From positions 1-34,487 of the IMG/VR virus record IMGVR_UViG_3300046471_000041: a DNA stretch of 34,487 nt; one strand, given 5' to 3'. The notes beneath the pieces were generated by a model. The model made no database searches. It was not told where the DNA came from and saw only the letters and a list, made by a program, of their open reading frames with translations. Made by a program: the position numbers and the translations under genes. Position 1 is the first letter of the stretch. Each line of letters opens with the position of its first letter. Below are positions 4,012-11,445 of the stretch, piece after piece. Origin of the DNA: a virus.

Positions 4012-4434
4012 ATGGAAGATTTTCTGCGGGCCTGCCAAAGCGCTGTTCTGGATAACGAGGCCAAATCACTGGCGGCAAAGATGGGCGTTCCTCACGTTGG
4101 GCTGCTTCAGCGCGCCAACCCGGACAACGATGCTCACCACCTAACCGTGGAGCACTTGTTCGGGATCTTGCTGCACACCAGCGACATCCGCCCTCTGGCG
4201 GCGCTCGCAAATGAATTCGGCTTCGACCTGGTCGCTAAAACTTCTCCTCAGCCTCAAGCGCTGACCAAATCTCTGATCAACGTCGGCAAGGAAGTGGCTG
4301 ATTTGACGATCGCCGTGCACGAAGCGCTCGGCGACGACCACGTCAGCACCTTCGAAAAATCCTTGATACGCCAAGAAATCAATCATGTCCGGCAAAGCCT
4401 GGACGTGATGGATGCATCGGTGAAAGCCGCCTGA
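4012..4434 (+). CDS. CII/CP76-family phage regulatory protein
   Basis: This 140-residue protein looks like the Phage_CP76 (CII-type) regulators of enteric and Pseudomonas phages: an N-terminal helical region (residues 1-35), an HLTVEHLFGILLHTSDIRPL helix-turn-helix-like segment at about 45-66, and a helical C-terminus (VADLTIAVHEALGDDHVS) that would oligomerise. These proteins take the place of lambda CII and influence the lysis/lysogeny choice by activating repressor or integrase promoters. ATG at 4012 has GAGG eight bases upstream. It lies between cro and the Rha-type gene, the expected position. Its target promoters could not be identified in the window. Confidence 0.75.
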   Translation: MEDFLRACQSAVLDNEAKSLAAKMGVPHVGLLQRANPDNDAHHLTVEHLFGILLHTSDIRPLAALANEFGFDLVAKTSPQPQALTKSLINVGKEVADLTIAVHEALGDDHVSTFEKSLIRQEINHVRQSLDVMDASVKAA

Positions 4435-4516: not shown

Positions 4517-4543
4517 CAAAAAAGCCGACGGACGAGGTCGGCT
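4517..4543 (-). terminator. Intrinsic terminator facing left
   Basis: The stem AGCCGAC/GTCGGCT (4523-4529, 4537-4543) has a run of A just to its left, which becomes a U tract on the leftward transcript. On the rightward strand no T run follows, so it is not a terminator for the early operon. A leftward transcript starting inside or beyond the Rha gene would end here, just short of the CII-like gene. Confidence 0.6.
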
Positions 4544-4571: not shown

Positions 4572-5384
4572 ATGCAGAGCCAACTCCATTCAAGCAATAC
4601 CCCGAACCATGCCGCGACACGTTTTGTTAATTCCGAAAACGTGTCGCGGACCACGATGTCTTCCCGCGAGATCGCCAACGTCACCGGCAAGCGTCACGCC
4701 AACGTGAAGCGCGACATCGCCGCGATGCTGAAAGAGCTGAAATTAGATGTACTCAGTTTTGAGCACATCTATCTGGATGGTCAAAACCGCGAGCAGGTCC
4801 AGTATCTGCTCGACCGCGAGCATACCGACTGCCTGCTCACCGGATACAGCGCACCGATGCGCATGAAGGTGATTCGCCGTTGGCGTGAACTGGAACAGCA
4901 GCAGGGCGCCCGCGAGCAAGTCCTGCTCAGCGGAACCAAAGTCGTCGGCGAGCTCGCAATCCTCGAGTGCTTCACGCGCCTTCTGAAGCCGGCGCCATCC
5001 AGTCAAATGCTGATGCTGGCCAAGATCGCCGCGAACAACGGCCTCGACGCCAAGTTCCTCCCTGGTTACACCATCGACGCCGCACCAGACGCAACGGGCG
5101 GCAGTTCCATGCCGACCAAGGCCATCACTGCCCTGATCAAAGATCACGGTATCGCCAGCACAGCCGCCGCCTTCAATCGTGCACTGGCCGCCAAGGGCTT
5201 CCTCAAGCAGCTCCAGCGCAAGAACTCCAAGCAGGAAATGGTCGACTTCTGGTGCGTTACCGAGAAGGGCATGACCTACGGCAAGAACCTCACCAATCCT
5301 CAATCCCCCCGCGAGACGCAGCCTCACTGGTACGTCGATCGTTTCCTCGAACTGGCCGACCTGGTCGGCAAGGGAGCCAAGTAA
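4572..5384 (+). CDS. Rha-family phage regulatory protein
   Basis: This protein of 270 residues has an N-terminal pRha domain (about 28-115: TMSSREIANVTGKRHANVKRD, then LDREHTDCLLTGYS and a basic helix MRMKVIRRWRELE). The C-terminal region (about 155-265) resembles the DNA-binding C-terminal domain found on phage antirepressor-type proteins. Rha proteins are early regulators that can interfere with growth in some hosts. The GTG at 4560 is in frame, but GAGG lies six bases before ATG 4572, which decides the start. The first 28 residues are partly encoded by a 36-bp palindrome (4613-4648), which is unusual. Its stop overlaps the start of the next gene (TAATG), indicating translational coupling. 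Confidence 0.85.
   Translation: MQSQLHSSNTPNHAATRFVNSENVSRTTMSSREIANVTGKRHANVKRDIAAMLKELKLDVLSFEHIYLDGQNREQVQYLLDREHTDCLLTGYSAPMRMKVIRRWRELEQQQGAREQVLLSGTKVVGELAILECFTRLLKPAPSSQMLMLAKIAANNGLDAKFLPGYTIDAAPDATGGSSMPTKAITALIKDHGIASTAAAFNRALAAKGFLKQLQRKNSKQEMVDFWCVTEKGMTYGKNLTNPQSPRETQPHWYVDRFLELADLVGKGAK
4613..4648. repeat. 36-bp palindromic site, copy A
   Basis: CGCGACAC and GTGTCGCG lie 20 bases apart. The pairing extends inward through GTTTT/AAAAC and outward by one pair, giving perfect 14-bp arms (4612-4625 and 4636-4649) around a 10-base centre. It is inside the N-terminal coding part of the Rha gene. A second copy with the same arm spacing is at 11207-11242. Confidence 0.85.
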
Positions 5385-6175
5385 TGGCCGGAGACTGGAT
5401 AAAAATGCGCATCGAACTTCAGACTCATCCGAAAGTTTTCCGCATGGTGTCCGCATTGAAAGCGGACAGACTTCGGATCATCGGCGGACTGCACATCGCT
5501 TGGAGCATCTTTGACACTCATTGTGATGATGGTGTGCTGGTGGGTTACACCACTGATGCGATGGACGCTGTCATCGGCTGGCCGGGCTTCACTCAGGCCA
5601 TGATTGACGTCGAATGGGCAGCCCTGAATGACGCTGGAAGCCTTGTAATGCCTCGCTTTGACGAGCACAACGGTAAGAGTGCAAAGCGCCGCGCCAACGA
5701 CAATGAGCGCAAACGTAACGACCGAAACAGCAAGGATGTCCGCAATGTGTCCGCTAGTGATGCGGACAAAAAGCGGACTAGAGAAGAGAAGAGAAGAGAA
5801 GATAAAGATAAAAAGCCTTATGGCGATGATGCGGTCGATCCTGCGGAGCTGTTCGCACGGTTCTGGGCGCTCTATCCCCGCAAGGTCAGCAAGGACGCTG
5901 CACGCAAGGCCTGGGACAAGCTCGATCTGTCCGCAGAGCTTTTCGAGACGATGATCCAAGCCTTGGGTGCGCAGAGCCTTAGCGTCGACTGGACCAAGGA
6001 CAACGGCCAGTTCATCCCGCACGCCTCGACCTGGCTCAACGGCAAGCGCTGGGAAGACGAAGTGCCGGAGCCAGCACCCATGGGCAGCAATGTCCACCCG
6101 TTCCCACCGCGTCGTCAGGCCAATGGCCCGGACTTCGACGACAAGACCTGGGCTGATGACTTGGGGGCGCTGTGA
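5384..6175 (+). CDS. Phage replication initiator (O-like)
   Basis: This protein of 263 residues combines an N-terminal winged-helix-like domain (about 1-95: GDWIKMRIELQTHPKV, RIIGGLHIAWSIFD), a very charged linker (about 105-145, KKRTREEKRREDKDKK) and a C-terminal domain (about 150-245) with FARFWALYPRKVSKDAARKAW and FIPHASTWLNGKRWEDE. The C-terminal motif is standard in phage replisome organisers. It should bind the origin and recruit the helicase loader encoded next. It starts within the Rha stop (TAATG), with GGGAG upstream. The long frame opening upstream at 4967 is a shadow of the Rha gene. The linker DNA contains the candidate origin. Confidence 0.82.
   Translation: MAGDWIKMRIELQTHPKVFRMVSALKADRLRIIGGLHIAWSIFDTHCDDGVLVGYTTDAMDAVIGWPGFTQAMIDVEWAALNDAGSLVMPRFDEHNGKSAKRRANDNERKRNDRNSKDVRNVSASDADKKRTREEKRREDKDKKPYGDDAVDPAELFARFWALYPRKVSKDAARKAWDKLDLSAELFETMIQALGAQSLSVDWTKDNGQFIPHASTWLNGKRWEDEVPEPAPMGSNVHPFPPRRQANGPDFDDKTWADDLGAL
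5448..5468. repeat. Inverted repeat TGTCCGC-N7-GCGGACA, upstream copy
   Basis: Perfect 7-bp arms surround a 7-base centre (ATTGAAA). The inner pair of the larger structure at 5737-5779 has exactly the same arms and the same 7-base spacing, which argues for a shared binding protein, most simply the initiator in whose gene both lie. Confidence 0.65.
5737..5779. repeat. Nested palindrome, candidate replication origin iterons
   Basis: Four copies of the 7-mer form a symmetric array: TGTCCGC at 5737 and 5748, then GCGGACA at 5762 and GCGGACT at 5773. Copies on the same side are 11 bp apart, one helical turn, and the inner pair is separated by 7 bases. A purine-rich, A-rich tract follows at once. 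The array lies in the poorly conserved linker of the initiator gene, as lambda's origin lies inside gene O. Confidence 0.6.
5780..5815. other. Purine-rich tract with GAGAA repeats beside the iterons
   Basis: Four tandem GAGAA units (5781-5800) continue into GATAAAGATAAAAA, giving about 35 bases of nearly pure purine on the coding strand. In lambda, an asymmetric A-rich region next to the iterons melts first during initiation; this tract is the natural counterpart. It encodes the charged linker, so composition alone could explain it. Confidence 0.5.
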
Positions 6176-6834
6176 TGAAAACCCCGAATCAGCTCATGCA
6201 GACCTTGGGCAACCTGCCTACCGTGGAGACTGCTCCGCTCAAGATCGACACCGGTACCACTGACGTCGTGAACTCGTTGTTCAAGGAGCTGCAGGCGATC
6301 TTCCCTGCATGGCGGCAGGCTTGGCCGGATGACGAAGCACTGAAGGCGGCCAAACGCAGTTGGATCAAGGCGTTCATGGCCCAGGGCATCAACCAGTTGG
6401 GGCAGATCCGCTACGGCATCGAAAACTGCCGCAAGCTGCAAAAGCCGTTCGCACCGAGCGTGGGCGAGTTTATTGCCATGTGCCAGCCGACCCCTGAAGC
6501 GCTCGGCATTCCGTCCCACGAAGCCGCCTTTACCGAATCCGTCGCCAATGCTCACCCGAGCATGGCTGGCGGCCGAGAATGGTCGCACCAGGCCGTGTAC
6601 CACGCTGCCAGCCAGTGTGGCTTCAACGCGCTGAACACGATGAAGGCCGAAGTCAGCCGCAAGCTGTTCGACCGCAACTACGACATCACCATCCGAATGA
6701 TGCTCGCGGGTGAGCGCTTGCGGAACATTCCGTTGGCCTTGCCTGAGCGGGTCGACGGTCGCGTGACGGCGGCGATCGGCAACAAAGCCTTGGCTGACTT
6801 GCGCAAAAACCGGGGAGGGCATGCCCATGGGTAA
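6175..6834 (+). CDS. Lambda P-like helicase loader
   Basis: This 219-residue protein matches the lambda P family: VVNSLFKELQAIFPAWRQAWP near residue 30-50, KRSWIKAFMAQGINQLGQIRYG at 60-85, and FAPSVGEFIAMCQP at about 97-110. It would load the host DnaB helicase at the origin together with the O-like protein. The GTG at 6172 is possible, but ATG 6175 overlaps the previous stop (TGATG) with a G-rich ribosome binding site eight bases upstream, so I use ATG. The C-terminus is basic and variable. It follows the O-like gene, the canonical order. Confidence 0.88.
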   Translation: MKTPNQLMQTLGNLPTVETAPLKIDTGTTDVVNSLFKELQAIFPAWRQAWPDDEALKAAKRSWIKAFMAQGINQLGQIRYGIENCRKLQKPFAPSVGEFIAMCQPTPEALGIPSHEAAFTESVANAHPSMAGGREWSHQAVYHAASQCGFNALNTMKAEVSRKLFDRNYDITIRMMLAGERLRNIPLALPERVDGRVTAAIGNKALADLRKNRGGHAHG

Positions 6835-6934
6835 GCAGACGACCAACAAAACTATGACCACCCTGGCCTGCACCATGGCTGGTTTCTCCATCGGCGTGTT
6901 CTGCGTCCTGATCACATTGGCGGTGACGTCATGA
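6827..6934 (+). CDS. Tiny single-pass membrane protein
   Basis: This 35-residue protein has a short basic N-terminus (MGKQTTNKTM) followed by one hydrophobic helix (about residues 13-33, CTMAGFSIGVFCVLITLAV). It overlaps the end of the P-like gene, and its stop overlaps the NinB start (ATGA). The strong GGGGAGG at 6812-6818 is eight bases from ATG 6827 but only two from the in-frame ATG at 6821, so 6827 is chosen. Function is unknown. Its tight packing between two genes argues that it is translated. Confidence 0.6.
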   Translation: MGKQTTNKTMTTLACTMAGFSIGVFCVLITLAVTS

Positions 6935-7401
6935 GCGACAAGATCAGCGTCAACAGCCAGGCCAAGCTGTCCGAGGCCATCACCAGCCTGACCACCATGT
7001 TCCGCGAAAAGAAGTTCGTCGTTGTGTCGCTGCGCCCGGGGAAAGACCGCACGCTCGACCAGAACGCACTGTGGTTCTCCCTGTACCAGCGCATCGCTGC
7101 GATGACGCAGATCGGCGACGTTGAGGATGCGCGCCGTTACTGCAAGCTGCACTTCGGCGTGCAGATCCTGGTGAACGAGGACGATGATTTCCGCAACGGC
7201 TGGTACCGGACCATGCGCCACCTGACCTACGCGGAAAAGCTGGACTTGATGGGTGGCAACCCGCTGTTCGGCCCGGACGGATTCCCGGTGACACGATTGT
7301 TCAGCCGCGCTCAGGGCATCGCCTACACGGATCGCATTGTTGCTGACTTCACTGGGCGCGGCGTGGTGTTCACGGATCTGCTGGGTGAGGTGGCTGCATG
7401 A
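6931..7401 (+). CDS. NinB-family recombination protein
   Basis: This 156-residue protein has the NinB signature: a beta-rich N-terminus (KKFVVVSLRPGKDRTLDQNALWF, where RTLDQNALW is the family hallmark) and a C-terminus with YTDRIVADFTGRGV. In lambda, NinB (Orf) binds single-stranded DNA and replaces RecFOR in Red recombination. Here no Red-type exonuclease or annealing protein is seen in the window, so it probably feeds host RecA. Its start overlaps the stop of the tiny membrane protein gene and its end overlaps the next gene, both by ATGA. Confidence 0.85.
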   Translation: MSDKISVNSQAKLSEAITSLTTMFREKKFVVVSLRPGKDRTLDQNALWFSLYQRIAAMTQIGDVEDARRYCKLHFGVQILVNEDDDFRNGWYRTMRHLTYAEKLDLMGGNPLFGPDGFPVTRLFSRAQGIAYTDRIVADFTGRGVVFTDLLGEVAA

Positions 7402-7709
7402 GCAAACAATTCAAACCGGGCGATCTGGCGATCCTCAAGAGTTCCGAGGCCGAACATCTGATAGGCAGTGTTGTTGAGCTGGTGGCATATGTCGGCAGTG
7501 AAGAGCACATGATTTATGAGGGCGTTGCAGCATTCAATCCCCAAAGGAACAGAATTTGGTGGGTAGAAATTACGTCGGGTCAGACGTTCTGCTCAGTAGC
7601 CCGCGGGCTTGTGAGTGATGGGTTTTGTGGAGAATTTCGGCTCATCCCTCTGCGCGGCGACTTCGAGCCTGAGCAGCAGAAGACCAAGGAGGCCGAACCT
7701 TGCGCGTAG
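7398..7709 (+). CDS. Hypothetical protein between NinB and NinG
   Basis: This 103-residue protein is not recognised. Its opening, FKPGDLAILKSSEAEHLIGSVVEL, resembles the SH3-like barrels of small phage proteins that begin with a beta strand and a G-D turn. The rest is beta-rich with two Trp residues and an acidic Lys/Glu tail. It is translationally coupled to NinB (ATGA) and overlaps NinG by 10 bases, so it belongs to the same operon. It sits in the nin region, where non-essential early accessory genes collect. Confidence 0.75.
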   Translation: MSKQFKPGDLAILKSSEAEHLIGSVVELVAYVGSEEHMIYEGVAAFNPQRNRIWWVEITSGQTFCSVARGLVSDGFCGEFRLIPLRGDFEPEQQKTKEAEPCA

Positions 7710-8308
7710 CCATGGAGAAGAAGGCGCCGAAGCCAAAGACCTGCAAAAACCCAGCCTGCAAAACCTCATTCGTCCCGCAGCGCCTTGGGCAATCCGTCTG
7801 CAACTACGCCTGCGGCCTGGCCATCAAGGACGTGAACCAGGAGAAGGCGCGTAAGTCGCTGGCTCAGGTCGAGCGCCGGGAGATCAAGGTCCGCAAGGAG
7901 AAGCTGAAGAGCAGGGCGGAGCACCTTCGCGAGGCACAGTCAGCGGTGAACGAGTTTGTCCGTCTGCGCGACGCGCACCTGCCCTGCATCAGCTGCGACT
8001 CCATGCCAAGCGATCACGACCTGATCACGGGCAGTCGCTGGGATGCAGGGCATTACCGTTCTGTTGGGGCCTGCCCGGAACTGCGTTTCGAACCGCTGAA
8101 CATCCACCGGCAGTGCGTGAAGTGCAACCGGAACCTGTCCGGCAACGCGGTCGAGTACCGCATTCGGTTGGTGCAGCGCATCAGCACCGAAACCGTGGCT
8201 TGGCTCGAAGGGCCTCATGAGCCCCGCAAGTACACCGTCGAAGAAATCAAAGCCATCAAGGCCGAATACCGAGCCAAGACCCGCGAACTGAAGAGGGCTG
8301 CAGCATGA
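7700..8308 (+). CDS. NinG-family recombination protein
   Basis: NinG (Rap) proteins are structure-specific nucleases acting on recombination intermediates. This one has 202 residues: an N-terminal Cys cluster (TCKNPACKTSF, CNYACG; residues about 14-37), a basic coiled coil (50-85), then CISCDS...DAGHYRSVGACPELRFE and NIHRQCVKCNRNLSGN, an HNH-like metal site. The start is TTG at 7700: a perfect AAGGAGG (7686-7692) lies seven bases upstream, whereas the in-frame ATG at 7712 is too far from it. The gene overlaps its neighbours on both sides, showing operon packing. Confidence 0.9.
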   Translation: MRVAMEKKAPKPKTCKNPACKTSFVPQRLGQSVCNYACGLAIKDVNQEKARKSLAQVERREIKVRKEKLKSRAEHLREAQSAVNEFVRLRDAHLPCISCDSMPSDHDLITGSRWDAGHYRSVGACPELRFEPLNIHRQCVKCNRNLSGNAVEYRIRLVQRISTETVAWLEGPHEPRKYTVEEIKAIKAEYRAKTRELKRAAA

Positions 8309-9000
8309 TCTATCCAAGTATTCTGAACGCAGTTGTCTCGGCCCTCGCGGCTGAGGCGATCGACAACACCAGTAAACAGGCGTGGCAGAAGCTGTACAAC
8401 TCCGCTGATGAGGACGAGGGGGGCGATCTGGCGACACTGGTTCGCTCGCGTGGGGCTGACACCATCGACCGCACGCAAGTTGACTGCTGGGTGTCTGCCC
8501 GCCTGCACAGCGCGCTTGAGCAAAAGCACTGGGATGCGCTGGTGGCGAAGTACAGCACGCACAAAGGGCGCAAGGTGCAAGCCATCGCGGCATTGCAAGC
8601 CCTGATCAATACCCCAGCACCGAAGTTGTTCCTGTTCAAGGCGACCACTGCCTGGGCTATCCCGCAACTGAAGGGCGCGCGGCCGAAGGTGGCGACCTCC
8701 GTGGCAGTCGAGATCCCGATCGATGCGCCAGAGTGGCGCCGCGAGGCCGTGGTAAGGGCTGCGCTGGCCGCCGGTCAGGCGAAGGTGAAACGTGACAGCT
8801 CCCGATCCGCCGACATGATCGTGCTCAAGGACAGCTTTTACGACATGAACACCTGGGACAATGACGGCACGCCGGAGTCGACTCGCCGCCGGTGGCGTCA
8901 GGATATCGGCAAGGCTGCTGATGACCTGGTGTACGAGGCTCTGGCGCATGCCGCCGACATTCTCGGAGGCGAAGGTTTGCTGATTGAACAAGCTGCGTGA
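8305..9000 (+). CDS. Unrecognised protein in the position of antiterminator Q
   Basis: This protein has 231 residues, overlapping NinG by ATGA and closing the early operon. I cannot assign a family. It has an Ala-rich N-terminus, a basic central segment (HWDALVAKYSTHKGRKVQ), a WAIPQL motif and a C-terminal RRRWRQDIGKAADDLVYEAL helix. It is followed at once by a TTGACA promoter-like hexamer and an intrinsic terminator, the same order as lambda Q, pR' and tR'. That makes a role in late-gene antitermination likely by position only. There are no obvious Q-type zinc cysteines. Confidence 0.75.
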   Translation: MIYPSILNAVVSALAAEAIDNTSKQAWQKLYNSADEDEGGDLATLVRSRGADTIDRTQVDCWVSARLHSALEQKHWDALVAKYSTHKGRKVQAIAALQALINTPAPKLFLFKATTAWAIPQLKGARPKVATSVAVEIPIDAPEWRREAVVRAALAAGQAKVKRDSSRSADMIVLKDSFYDMNTWDNDGTPESTRRRWRQDIGKAADDLVYEALAHAADILGGEGLLIEQAA

Positions 9001-9007
9001 TTGCCTG

Positions 9008-9036
9008 TTGACATCAGTGAGCGAATGAGCGAAATT
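9008..9036 (+). promoter_or_regulatory. Candidate late promoter
   Basis: A perfect TTGACA (9008-9013) lies seven bases after the Q-position gene. The hexamer 17 bases on is poor (GAAATT), and slightly longer spacers give AATTAA or ATTAAT. A weak -10 would fit a promoter at which polymerase is modified by a Q protein. A transcript would run about 60 bases to the terminator at 9079-9105. Confidence 0.4.
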
Positions 9037-9078
9037 AATCCGATCCTGTCATTCCTGCGTGTGTAGGACTGATAAACG

Positions 9079-9105
9079 AAACCCGGCCTGCGAGCCGGGT
9101 TTTTT
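9079..9105 (+). terminator. Intrinsic terminator after the early operon and late promoter
   Basis: The stem ACCCGGC/GCCGGGT (9081-9087, 9094-9100) is preceded by AA and followed by six T. It can end the early operon transcript and also a short leader from the candidate late promoter, like lambda tR'. Confidence 0.85.
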
Positions 9106-9114
9106 GTTTGCAGG

Positions 9115-9363
9115 TCAGTCTTGAATCTCGACCTCGGTAACGGTCACAGTTTGTCGAGCAGCATAGAAGCCGCGCTCTTTGAGTGATGCCATGACTTCTT
9201 CACTTTGAAGCCCCATCGGCAAATCTTTAAAATCGACCTGCCGATGAAATGTAAGACCTTTCAAGAACTTCGAGCCTTCACCAGAAATTCGAGGGATCTC
9301 TTTCCCGTCTTCTACGATCAGGATTCTATCCAGAGCTTCGTCGCGGTAGATATCTACGAACAT
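9115..9363 (-). CDS. Hypothetical protein, leftward, inside the late leader
   Basis: This 82-residue protein of unknown function begins MFVDIYRDEALDRILIVEDG. The frame opens 20 codons earlier, but AGAGG lies seven bases before the ATG at 9363, which fixes the start. It looks folded: alternating beta and helix, no membrane segment, an acidic C-terminus. It is encoded against the late operon and reads left toward the terminator region at 9079-9105. Since it cannot come from the late transcript, it probably has its own promoter and may be expressed in the lysogen. Confidence 0.65.
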   Translation of the reverse strand: MFVDIYRDEALDRILIVEDGKEIPRISGEGSKFLKGLTFHRQVDFKDLPMGLQSEEVMASLKERGFYAARQTVTVTEVEIQD

Positions 9364-9442
9364 TTCAATTCCTCTTCCTTGGTGGTGCCAAGATGGCTCC
9401 TCCTGCGAAAGGCTTGTTAGCACGATTTGTTTTGATTTGCCA

Positions 9443-9467
9443 AACCGACCAGTGCGTCGGTTTTTTT
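9443..9467 (+). terminator. Intrinsic terminator, second in the late leader
   Basis: The stem AACCGAC/GTCGGTT (9443-9449, 9456-9462) has a six-base loop and is followed by an unbroken run of seven T. It faces right and lies upstream of the leftward gene's start. Confidence 0.85.
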
Positions 9468-9469
9468 AC

Positions 9470-9714
9470 GCCTCGAATTCACCTGTAGCCAGGGCAGCCC
9501 TCGGGAAGGCCTGGACACTGATAAGCCGGCAAGTGCAGTGCTACGACAAAACACCGGCAGCCCGCGTACCCCGTCCTCACCATGCTTACGGGGTAGCGCG
9601 AGACTGAACCAGCGAGATCGATGAATTCGGGCGTCGACGCAGTGAAGGTCTTTGGCAGACAGCGGGAAAGACTGCGCACCTATTCAGGGCCTCTGCATTC
9701 GCAGGGGCTTTTTT
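9470..9714 (+). ncRNA. Structured untranslated stretch, candidate small RNA
   Basis: About 245 bases between two rightward terminators contain no convincing gene. A strong stem is visible: CGCGTACCCCGT (9563-9574) pairs with ACGGGGTA plus CGCG (9588-9600), with one bulged base. Further pairing joins GCAGT...TCTTT near 9640-9654 with AAAGACTGC near 9667-9675, and the stretch ends in the terminator at 9689-9714. It could be a small RNA or a late-leader element. I see no clear promoter of its own. Confidence 0.3.
9689..9714 (+). terminator. Intrinsic terminator, third in the late leader
   Basis: The stem GCCTCTGC/GCAGGGGC (9689-9696, 9701-9708) has one G-T pair, a four-base ATTC loop and six T. 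It ends only seven bases before the ribosome binding site of the next gene (GAGG at 9721-9724), so polymerase must pass it for that gene to be made from the late transcript. Confidence 0.85.
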
Positions 9715-9732
9715 CGTTATGAGGCACCGAAA

Positions 9733-9975
9733 ATGTCCGATCCTCAATTCAGCATATTGATCGCCCAAATCGAGTCGCTCAGCGCACAGATTCAAACCGA
9801 GTCGAGCGAGCGCTCGATTGCGGATGAGGCATTGGCCTCTCGTGTTGCGGCTAGCGAAGCTGCTATCGCTGCGATGAATTTGCAATCAATTGCCGAGGCC
9901 GGAAACGCAGCAGGCGAAAAAATCCTGTTGGAGCGCCGCTTGACCGAGATCGAGCGGCGTTTAGGAATCGCTTAA
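9733..9975 (+). CDS. Small coiled-coil protein ahead of the lysis genes
   Basis: This 80-residue protein is almost wholly helical, with heptad-like Ile/Leu spacing (FSILIAQIESLSAQIQTESS, then LLERRLTEIERRLGI). The frame is open further upstream, but GAGG eight bases before ATG 9733 sets the start, and upstream codons fall in a terminator. Function is unknown. Small coiled-coil proteins in this position accompany lysis cassettes of Pseudomonas phages. Its stop overlaps the end of the leftward gene at 9972-10172 by four bases. Confidence 0.7.
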   Translation: MSDPQFSILIAQIESLSAQIQTESSERSIADEALASRVAASEAAIAAMNLQSIAEAGNAAGEKILLERRLTEIERRLGIA

Positions 9976-10172
9976 TCGTTGGCTTTTTCAAACTCGCGCA
10001 GGGCGTAGGCCTTAAGTTCGGCTACTGACATTGAGTCCGCATTGGCGGGTGACTTCGGGCTGAAGTTTGTTGTGGTGCCTGCTGGTAGCAGGATGGTCGC
10101 CAGCAAGTTCCACCCGTCTCCGGCGTGCAGGTTCGCTAGGTTTAGACTCATAAGTTTGTATTTGCTGCTCAT
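9972..10172 (-). CDS. Small hypothetical protein, leftward
   Basis: This 66-residue protein is soluble, with a Gly/Asn-rich middle (HAGDGWNLLATILLPAG, TTTNFSPKSP) and a C-terminal helix (MSVAELKAYALREFEKAND). AGGGA five bases before ATG 10172 supports translation. It converges on the preceding rightward gene with a four-base overlap. Like the gene at 9115-9363, it lies against the late operon and would be silenced or opposed by late transcription. No family is recognised. Confidence 0.6.
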   Translation of the reverse strand: MSSKYKLMSLNLANLHAGDGWNLLATILLPAGTTTNFSPKSPANADSMSVAELKAYALREFEKAND

Positions 10173-10228
10173 TACTTTCCCTTTTAGAGCTGTTTCGTTA
10201 GTGGAATTTCGATAGTAGCTCTAATCCC

Positions 10229-10253
10229 AAGCCCGTCACCATGCGGGCTTTTT
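10229..10253 (+). terminator. Intrinsic terminator upstream of the holin gene
   Basis: The stem AAGCCCG/CGGGCTT (10229-10235, 10244-10250) encloses an eight-base loop and is followed by a T run. It is the fourth rightward terminator between the Q-position gene and the holin. Confidence 0.75.
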
Positions 10254-10340
10254 CGTTTTCGGCTCCCCACACCCATTGCTCCGAGCTGGGAGTGCTGTTG
10301 GAGCCGTACCTATCACGCTCCCCCCAAGGGAGGACATCGG

Positions 10341-10667
10341 ATGAAGCTCATGCCCGAAAAGAACCCGGACACGTGGGCCGCTATCTGGATGGCCCTGAGC
10401 AATCCACTTTGGCAGGGCGCAATTATGGCGATCCTTATCTCCTTCCTGCGCGTCCTGTATGACGCTAAAGAGACCAGCAAACGCCGGATCTTCTTCGAAG
10501 CACTGATCTGCGGTGGGTTGAGCTTGTCAGCCAGTAGCGTCATTGAGTGGATGGCCTGGCCATCGAGTTTGTCTGTTGCCGCCGGCGGAACGATTGGCTT
10601 TCTCGGCGTAACGGCCATTCGCGAGATGGTGACCCGCTTCCTGGGTCGCAAGGTTGATTCGTTATGA
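10341..10667 (+). CDS. Lambda-type holin
   Basis: This 108-residue protein has three predicted membrane helices (about 23-42, 50-70, 76-97) and a short basic C-terminus, the class I holin plan of lambda S-like proteins; the N-terminal MPEKNPDTWAAIW is also typical of that family. It would form membrane holes that release the endolysin. ATG 10341 has GGGAGG seven bases upstream. A second Met at codon 4 could give a dual-start holin/antiholin pair as in lambda, but no control hairpin was traced. Its stop overlaps the Rz start. Confidence 0.8.
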   Translation: MKLMPEKNPDTWAAIWMALSNPLWQGAIMAILISFLRVLYDAKETSKRRIFFEALICGGLSLSASSVIEWMAWPSSLSVAAGGTIGFLGVTAIREMVTRFLGRKVDSL

Positions 10668-11041
10668 AGGCGTTCGCAGCTACAGCAATCATCGCGCTCG
10701 TTGCCTGCCTGTTGTTGGGCATCCAGCACTACCAGGTCATTGCTCTTGAGGGGCAGGTGACGATCGAGGCCAAGGGCAAGCAGGACGCCATCGCGGCTAA
10801 CACCGAGAGCCAGGCGACGATCACCACGCTTCGCGCCGAAGCCCAGCGCAACGCCGCCTACACCGCCGACCTCAACAAGCGAATCAGGGCCAGCGAAGAC
10901 AAAGCCAAAAAGGCGAGGAAAGACTTTGAAGATCTCAAGCGCAACAGCAAGCCTGTTCGTGATTGGGCTGCTCAGCCTCTGCCTGACGGCCTGCGCGGGA
11001 AACCCGCCAGTAGTAACAAAAGCAACGGCAGTACGAATTGA
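10664..11041 (+). CDS. Rz-like inner-membrane spanin
   Basis: This 125-residue protein has an N-terminal signal-anchor helix (AATAIIALVACLLLGIQHY) and a long periplasmic coiled coil (about 25-95) rich in Lys/Glu/Ala, ending in a flexible Ser/Asn tail. It would pair with the Rz1 lipoprotein to fuse inner and outer membranes in the final lysis step. It is coupled to the holin by ATGA, and Rz1 begins inside it in another frame. No endolysin gene sits between holin and Rz, where lambda has one. Confidence 0.85.
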   Translation: MKAFAATAIIALVACLLLGIQHYQVIALEGQVTIEAKGKQDAIAANTESQATITTLRAEAQRNAAYTADLNKRIRASEDKAKKARKDFEDLKRNSKPVRDWAAQPLPDGLRGKPASSNKSNGSTN

Positions 11042-11204
11042 GGCGCCTGAGCTTACTCCCTGTGAGCGGATCGACGCGGCCGAGTCTGAGGCTGGCCTTC
11101 GCATGAACGGGGATGTGTGGGAGCTCAAGGATCAGGCCATCAAACTGCTGGACACGTGTGCCGACCAGGTGGACGCCCAGATCGTGCGCAGTCAGAGCAA
11201 GTAG
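10926..11204 (+). CDS. Rz1-like outer-membrane spanin lipoprotein
   Basis: This 92-residue protein begins with a signal peptide ending in the lipobox LTAC, so Cys23 would be lipidated, followed by AGNPPVV, a short Pro-containing stretch typical of Rz1. The start is TTG at 10926, with GAGG seven bases upstream inside Rz. The gene begins in another frame within Rz and runs 163 bases beyond the Rz stop, an overlapping rather than fully embedded arrangement. Its C-terminal part has two Cys (PCERID and DTCADQ), which might form a disulfide in the periplasm. Confidence 0.85.
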   Translation: MKISSATASLFVIGLLSLCLTACAGNPPVVTKATAVRIEAPELTPCERIDAAESEAGLRMNGDVWELKDQAIKLLDTCADQVDAQIVRSQSK

Positions 11205-11206
11205 TC

Positions 11207-11242
11207 CGCGACACGTTTCGCGAATCGGTAAATTGTGTCGCG
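11207..11242. repeat. 36-bp palindromic site, copy B
   Basis: CGCGACAC (11207-11214) and GTGTCGCG (11235-11242) are 20 bases apart, the same arms and spacing as copy A at 4613-4648. Inside, GTTT, AAT and AAA occur at matching positions in both copies. It starts three bases after the Rz1 stop and ends just before the ribosome binding site of the next gene. Confidence 0.8.
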
Positions 11243-11256
11243 ACATTGGAGTGAGC

Positions 11257-11445
11257 ATGACCAACATCACGCGTCTGCATCATGCATTGCCGCTGAGCCC
11301 CGCAATTAACCAGGCCATCACTGAGCTGGATAGCGCGATCGCCAAAGCGATTGACGCTGCCAAGGCTGCCGGCCTGTCTCAGGGGTTGGTTGTATCGCTC
11401 CTGCACGGGCACGCCCACGCACAAACGCACGTCATGGTGACTTGA
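11257..11445 (+). CDS. Small conserved-looking protein upstream of the terminase
   Basis: This 62-residue helical protein reads MTNITRLHHALPLSPAINQ at its start and ends with a His-rich LLHGHAHAQTH segment. GGAG five bases before ATG 11257 supports the start; the frame is open upstream, but the palindromic site lies there. The sequence reminds me of small proteins found beside lysis or terminase genes in Pseudomonas prophages, function unknown. The His pairs might bind a metal, though there is no structural support for that. Confidence 0.7.
   Translation: MTNITRLHHALPLSPAINQAITELDSAIAKAIDAAKAAGLSQGLVVSLLHGHAHAQTHVMVT

Follow-up and report, generated by a model that had tools for sequence, protein, structure and literature searches.

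Paired palindromic half-sites at the module joints of Pseudomonas phages: candidate operators of a predicted ribbon-helix-helix protein

A virus record of 34,487 nucleotides, IMG/VR IMGVR_UViG_3300046471_000041 (here called the window, meaning the whole stretch), is part of a lambdoid Pseudomonas phage and contains two 36-bp palindromes, sites A and B, which belong to a large and apparently undescribed family of sites found at three fixed positions in Pseudomonas phages. The arms of these sites come in types, and the type is shared by distant sites of the same prophage, which points to recognition by a putative phage-encoded factor acting in trans. We propose, as a reading that stands at about even odds and was reached by comparing sequences, that the palindromes are operators of a self-regulating phage protein of the ribbon-helix-helix (RHH) class, most likely the product of the gene family phrog_5439, and that they are inherited at the joints between phage modules.

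The two sites and their family

4613..4648, strand not assigned: site A, class 1 palindrome, type I (GACAC-GTTTT), within the 5' leader of a Rha-family open reading frame (ORF)
11207..11242, strand not assigned: site B, class 2 palindrome, type I, 2 bp past the stop of the Rz1-like gene and 14 bp ahead of the next ATG

Both palindromes had been picked out by a first-pass annotation of the window, and both were present as described, with arms set 20 bases apart. They fit the pattern CGCGACAC-N20-GTGTCGCG, and pairs of CGCGACAC and GTGTCGCG separated by 14-30 bp occurred twice in the window, at sites A and B only, vs 0 in 100 dinucleotide shuffles. The two sites are identical at 27 of 36 bases. 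Site A is centered on a palindromic AATT and has 13 perfect pairs per arm within the 36-mer; the perfect 14-bp arms ascribed to it earlier are obtained only when the flanking bases C4612 and G4649 are included. Site B has 8 perfect pairs, all of them outer ones. The placement given by the annotation also held for both copies: site A falls within the N-terminal leader of the Rha-family ORF (start at 4572), where it encodes residues ~14-26 (ATRFVNSENVSR), and site B begins 2 bp beyond the TAG stop codon (11202-11204) of the Rz1-like ORF.

The family consensus is CGCG(A/C)CAC-N20/21-GTG(T/G)CGCG. Among the matches listed, a scope that applies to all counts from viral contigs, a gap scan with CGCGACAC-N12..28-GTGTCGCG yielded 96 sites at N20 and 17 at N21, with single digits at all other gaps, and the half-site TGTCGCGACACGTTT was accompanied by its partner arm at N20/21 spacing in 150 of 151 distinct cases. 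We concluded from the peak at N20/N21 and the obligatory partner arm that the pairing of the arms does not arise by chance. When 84,980 species were scanned, each represented by one genome, the inner-specific pattern was found in 113 stretches; the best 80 of the 113 titles were all Pseudomonas except for one short contig labelled Streptomyces. Sixty-six of 199 Pseudomonas genomes carried the site (at most 1 mismatch), inside prophages, vs none with the reversed pattern as control, and a profile scan of prophages gave zero matches in 1.14 Mb of reversed sequence. There were 1-6 copies per genome, in prophage-like contexts. The frequency of the motif was thus not random and its positions in prophages were conserved, in favor of the first-pass annotation, and a conserved two-arm site at fixed phage positions is, as proposed there, best read as the probable target of a common DNA-binding protein. 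Neither the motif strings nor the themes of this work were found in the relevant papers of a partial literature set, although such an absence is no proof of novelty.

Positions, arm types and neighboring genes

Mapping of the genes beside the motif, with classes assigned from neighbor genes and custom ORF calls, placed the sites in three fixed positional classes, with each of the left early, right early, and late transcription units holding one class. Fully covered prophages typically had one site per class, three in total, spaced roughly 10 kb and then 5-8 kb apart. Class 1 sites, such as site A, lie ~105 bp past the stop codon of the CII-like gene, within or shortly ahead of the next gene; in the majority a conserved leader (ATGcagagccaa...gcaatacccc) spans the site and leads into a regulatory gene, Rha or another, and where such a gene is lacking a replication gene starts ~30 bp downstream. 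Class 2 sites, such as site B, begin 2 bp past the stop of the last lysis gene and are followed by small genes and terminase. Class 3 sites are left-arm sites and fall within the 3' portion of the small gene phrog_5439. The position of site A recurs in >140 phage loci and that of site B in ~100 distinct oriented sites. A variant site at the 3' end of a phrog_12707 gene, encoding PESVSRH, was seen in F10 (L331, 28169) and BR133a (L332, 34258), and the F10-like variant was matched by many P. aeruginosa phage records.

The first-pass annotation had also allowed for a small mobile palindrome, which in the form of a REP, RPE or MITE-like element would have been inserted in three places. In two genes, at the Rha leader and in phrog_5439, the palindrome does encode an in-frame linker, read in one and the same frame, as would suit such an element; the 1-6 copies, their fixed positions in prophage-like contexts, and the lack of any empty or duplicated sites among those seen make it very improbable. 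REP and RPE elements are marked by many dispersed and variably placed copies, and the copy number here is too low for either.

The arms themselves vary in a coordinated way. Base pair 5/32 was A:T or C:G (167 and 90 cases in the first set, with one exception), and hybrid arms were rare among distinct sites, amounting to 3 of 143 in class 1, 4 of 97 in class 2, and 6 of 108 in class 3. The symmetric switch at 5/32 and the scarcity of hybrids together indicate that both arms must fit one specificity. In a third type the C:G pair was kept and the inner GTTTT/AAAAC was replaced by RAAAT/ATTTY, across the sites of one phage. Types also agreed between the classes within prophages, in 29 of 32 for classes 1 and 2 (shuffled mean 13.4), 36 of 44 for classes 3 and 1 (20.0), and 26 of 32 for classes 3 and 2 (14.1), each with P<1e-4, in a concordance table compiled by hand and with statistics that ignore common ancestry. 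Different types were present in separate prophages of one host genome (G094, G109, and G144). As the types follow the prophage and coexist in one host, we consider that type belongs to the phage, which is what reading of the sites by a phage-encoded factor in trans would predict.

This coexistence bears on whether a Pseudomonas host DNA-binding protein might recognize the sites and be exploited by phages and satellites. The restriction of the listed genome-scan titles to Pseudomonas, apart from the contig labelled Streptomyces, and the presence of sites in phages and a satellite without phrog_5439 would both fit a host protein. A host reader is nevertheless hard to reconcile with types I and II occurring side by side in separate prophages of one host and tracking the prophage, and we regard it as unlikely, though not negligibly so. 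A role in a host regulon is likewise not favored, because the mapped copies lie in or near prophage genes, in pairs or triples inside prophages.

With one site per major transcription unit and stems of 8-13 bp, the palindromes could instead be read as RNA hairpins in three transcripts, serving nut/put-like antitermination, RNA processing, or translational control, and the basic N-terminal helix predicted for phrog_5439 would fit this reading. A functional stem predicts that single-sided changes on the transcribed strand appear as G.U more than as A.C. The observed ratios of G.U to A.C were 59:58, 62:78, and 46:79 in classes 1, 2, and 3, respectively, so that G.U was no commoner than A.C, and a site in double-stranded DNA with two-fold symmetry is the better reading. 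In addition, the inner arms are unpaired in most class 3 sites, and the sites lie mid-operon. We therefore consider an RNA hairpin improbable; the tolerance of wobble pairs that marks nut/boxB or put antitermination sites was not seen.

The window encodes a CI repressor, the CII-like CP76, Rha, replication genes, NinB, NinG, lysis genes, and a packaging/head/tail region. The features nearest the sites, and one at the left end of the record, are as follows.

4572..5384, + strand: Rha-family regulatory/antirepressor gene (PF09669, E=1.8e-14; PHROG anti-repressor)
4518..4543, - strand: terminator-like hairpin, intrinsic and leftward (AGCCGAC...GTCGGCT, then T6), between CII and site A, in an oop-like position
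4012..4434, + strand: CII-like regulator (Phage_CP76; PF06892, E=8.4e-25), the usual left neighbor of class 1
10926..11204, + strand: Rz1-like lysis gene, starting inside the Rz ORF and overlapping the Rz-like spanin at 10664-11041 (phrog_89); left neighbor of site B
11257..11445, + strand: small gene phrog_15190 (E=1.2e-32), right neighbor of site B, upstream of the terminase genes
755-1636, - strand: IS3-type transposase (rve, HTH_21), at the left end of the record

Of 142 class 1 flanks, 134 had a leftward terminator-like hairpin similar to that at 4518-4543 ahead of the leader, a hint of an oop-like antisense RNA whose start would be close to the palindrome. The record ends before the left arm, and the expected third site and phrog_5439 would lie beyond the IS3-type transposase. 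The left-arm third site, the co-variation of arm types, the linked RHH-like phrog_5439, and the nearly free assortment of neighboring genes had all been missed by the first-pass annotation.

phrog_5439 as the candidate binder

The first-pass annotation had named Rha, a CII-like protein, and the repressor as proteins whose binding might be tried. None of the three is favored by our results. There was no GTGTCGCG half-site (at most 1 mismatch) between cI and cro in the window, which counts against a CI or CII operator and against a stoperator of the mycobacteriophage type, and in some phages the site has no adjacent Rha. Rha was rejected as the sole binder because sites occur directly ahead of a replication gene without Rha and because its association with the sites, present in 30 of 66 site-positive and 26 of 133 site-negative genomes, is weaker than that of phrog_5439. 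The latter was found in 93 of the 199 Pseudomonas genomes; outside the genus, 3 of 368 gammaproteobacterial genomes gave weak matches. Of the site-positive genomes 52 of 66 had it, vs 41 of 133 site-negative ones (P=2e-10). Almost all phrog_5439 genes contain the palindrome, at codon ~73, including those in genomes scored as site-negative, and many of the site-negative carriers have a class 3 palindrome in the gene or all three sites with the inner sequence of the third type. Isolated phages with the gene include phiAH14a (AH14a_p13) and PseuP_222 (WHS04366.1).

A structure model of phrog_5439 (46 sequences, AF2) contains a basic N-terminal helix, an extended stretch at residues 20-29, and helices at 30-43 and 48-62. 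Most of the 33 PDB matches returned by Foldseek were of RHH type (NikR, Arc, AtaR, MazE-like antitoxins, and TCP domains), all with E>1; apo-NikR led in probability (0.72, root-mean-square deviation 1.2 A over 43 columns), also with E>1. NikR profiles matched 5 of the 46 members, with a best E of 3.3e-4 that is below the curated cut-off. An RHH fold for phrog_5439 is weakly supported by these matches and is likely rather than established. Tandem or two-domain phrog_5439-like genes with differing strand sequences were observed within one phage (L309, 2667-3041 and 3680-4036; L532, 15598-16116).

We propose that each arm would be a DNA half-site and that a small protein encoded by the phage, most likely the product of phrog_5439, would bind the two arms as one unit; the phrog_5439 gene lies in the left operon and itself carries one site. 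Two dimers, one per arm, would probably be involved, and inverted half-sites at a fixed spacing, as found here, are a mark of RHH operators. Binding inside operons might lower the transcription of phrog_5439 itself as well as that of the Rha/replication and packaging segments, acting as a roadblock or feedback brake with a logic comparable to that of P22 Arc/Mnt on ant; activation or organization of the DNA would be alternative effects.

Several points, besides the neglect of common ancestry in the concordance statistics, weigh against this proposal. The complete phages VW-6S and F10 and the satellite phiAH14b have the site without a recognizable phrog_5439. The RHR, LRV, and LH strand subfamilies of phrog_5439 each co-occur with both types, and class 3 and class 1 differed in type in 8 of 44 prophages. 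The sites lie away from obvious promoters, a shallower phrog_5439 model (27 sequences) gave no fold match, and neither a Pfam family nor a PDB sequence relative was found for phrog_5439. The correspondence between the RHH strand residue and site type was clean for class 3 alone and only partial for class 1, and we have therefore not used it as proof.

Module joints, a satellite, and known systems

The sites also mark places where unrelated sequences meet. If two loci were related on at least one flank of the site, their opposite flanks were unrelated in 92% of cases in class 1 and 95% in class 2, vs 13-83% and 26-59%, respectively, when the same test point was shifted by 150-500 bp. Class 1 pairs related on both sides numbered 48 (~20 if the sides were independent), compared with 317 at a point 150 bp further right. 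In class 3, the palindrome-encoded linker is where N-terminal domains and C-terminal tails of phrog_5439 have been reassorted. We concluded from the nearly free assortment of class 1 and class 2 neighbors that the sites are mosaic joints as well; the change-over point inside the site varies, with no single position. At several class 1 loci (for example L028, L086, L094, and L115) a single conserved N-terminal leader is fused in frame, at the palindrome, to varied proteins (Rha and others), which is a cassette swap at the level of the protein.

Conserved sequence at a mosaic joint, which is what characterizes the boundary sequences of lambdoid phages, is found at these sites, and it could be that they are conserved only as homology for module exchange, with no bound protein. 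The joints are precise, and short conserved joints are known in lambdoid phages. Such a role leaves unexplained the perfect symmetry, the symmetric type switches, the rarity of hybrids, and the concordance of distant sites, and we hold it to be improbable as the whole explanation.

Alternatively, a recombinase acting on both arms might swap modules between co-resident phages by site-specific exchange, with class-specific cores preventing deletion within one phage. The 13-10-13 architecture resembles that of recombinase sites, the cores are indeed class-specific, and the sides of class 1 and 2 sites are almost unlinked; but no common recombinase was seen among the gene clusters shared by carriers, change-over is not limited to one point in the site, and ordinary homologous recombination at a conserved 36-mer would give an identical pattern, so that we consider this mechanism unlikely. 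It is rather unlikely, too, that phrog_5439 or a partner forms a dedicated exchange system, binding type-matched joints and promoting swaps of modules (left-arm, replication/lysis, and packaging) between Pseudomonas phages that reside in one host, with satellites sharing the joint. If the sites are operators, as we prefer, they would form conserved islands between modules and hence would also be preferred joints for exchange; acting as islands of homology, they make a dedicated exchange system possible but do not require one.

The satellite phiAH14b of phage phiAH14a (PMC4936722) has one C:G-type site (10506-10541, L326) between AH14b_p18 and p19, and AH14b_p18-like genes adjoin sites of both types in several Pseudomonas genomes. 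A term search of the paper on the pair found no mention of the palindrome (PMC4936722). Both helper and satellite carry the site, and phrog_5439 is found in the helper (AH14a_p13). From its sequence, the site in phiAH14b would look like that of a parasite reading the regulator of its helper.

In phages that are otherwise unrelated, the three main joints are thus marked by a single short site whose copies co-vary. This links gene control with the swapping of parts among Pseudomonas phages. If phrog_5439 binds the site, a family without assigned function would become a phage-wide regulator whose specificity classes can be read, and a satellite would carry the operator of its helper. An old question, whether module exchange uses random short homologies or dedicated joints bound by a protein, is thereby made testable.

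Among known systems, the Arc/Mnt and ant operators of P22 share with the present sites a predicted RHH protein, an operator at the start of an antirepressor-type gene (here Rha), and apparent self-regulation; unlike those of P22, the half-sites here are 20-21 bp apart, and three operators are spread over ~20 kb inside operons and coding regions. At the NikR operator an RHH tetramer binds two separated inverted half-sites. The dyad half-sites with a wide fixed gap and the weak profile and fold similarity of phrog_5439 recall NikR, whereas the sequence and gap differ, the sites are phage-borne, and no metal-binding domain was found in phrog_5439. Mycobacteriophage stoperators (PMC9283540, PMC6550527) resemble our sites in having several internal copies, a phage-encoded binder (here a candidate), and a proposed effect on elongation; they differ in being asymmetric and numerous and in that the immunity repressor binds them (PMC9283540, PMC6550527), whereas the present sites are three palindromes, with no match between cI and cro. 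Finally, as with the boundary or linker sequences of lambdoid phages and their relaxed homologous exchange (PMC3945230), short conserved sequences coincide with module joints, but those described here are palindromic, occupy three fixed positions, and fall into specificity types that co-vary.

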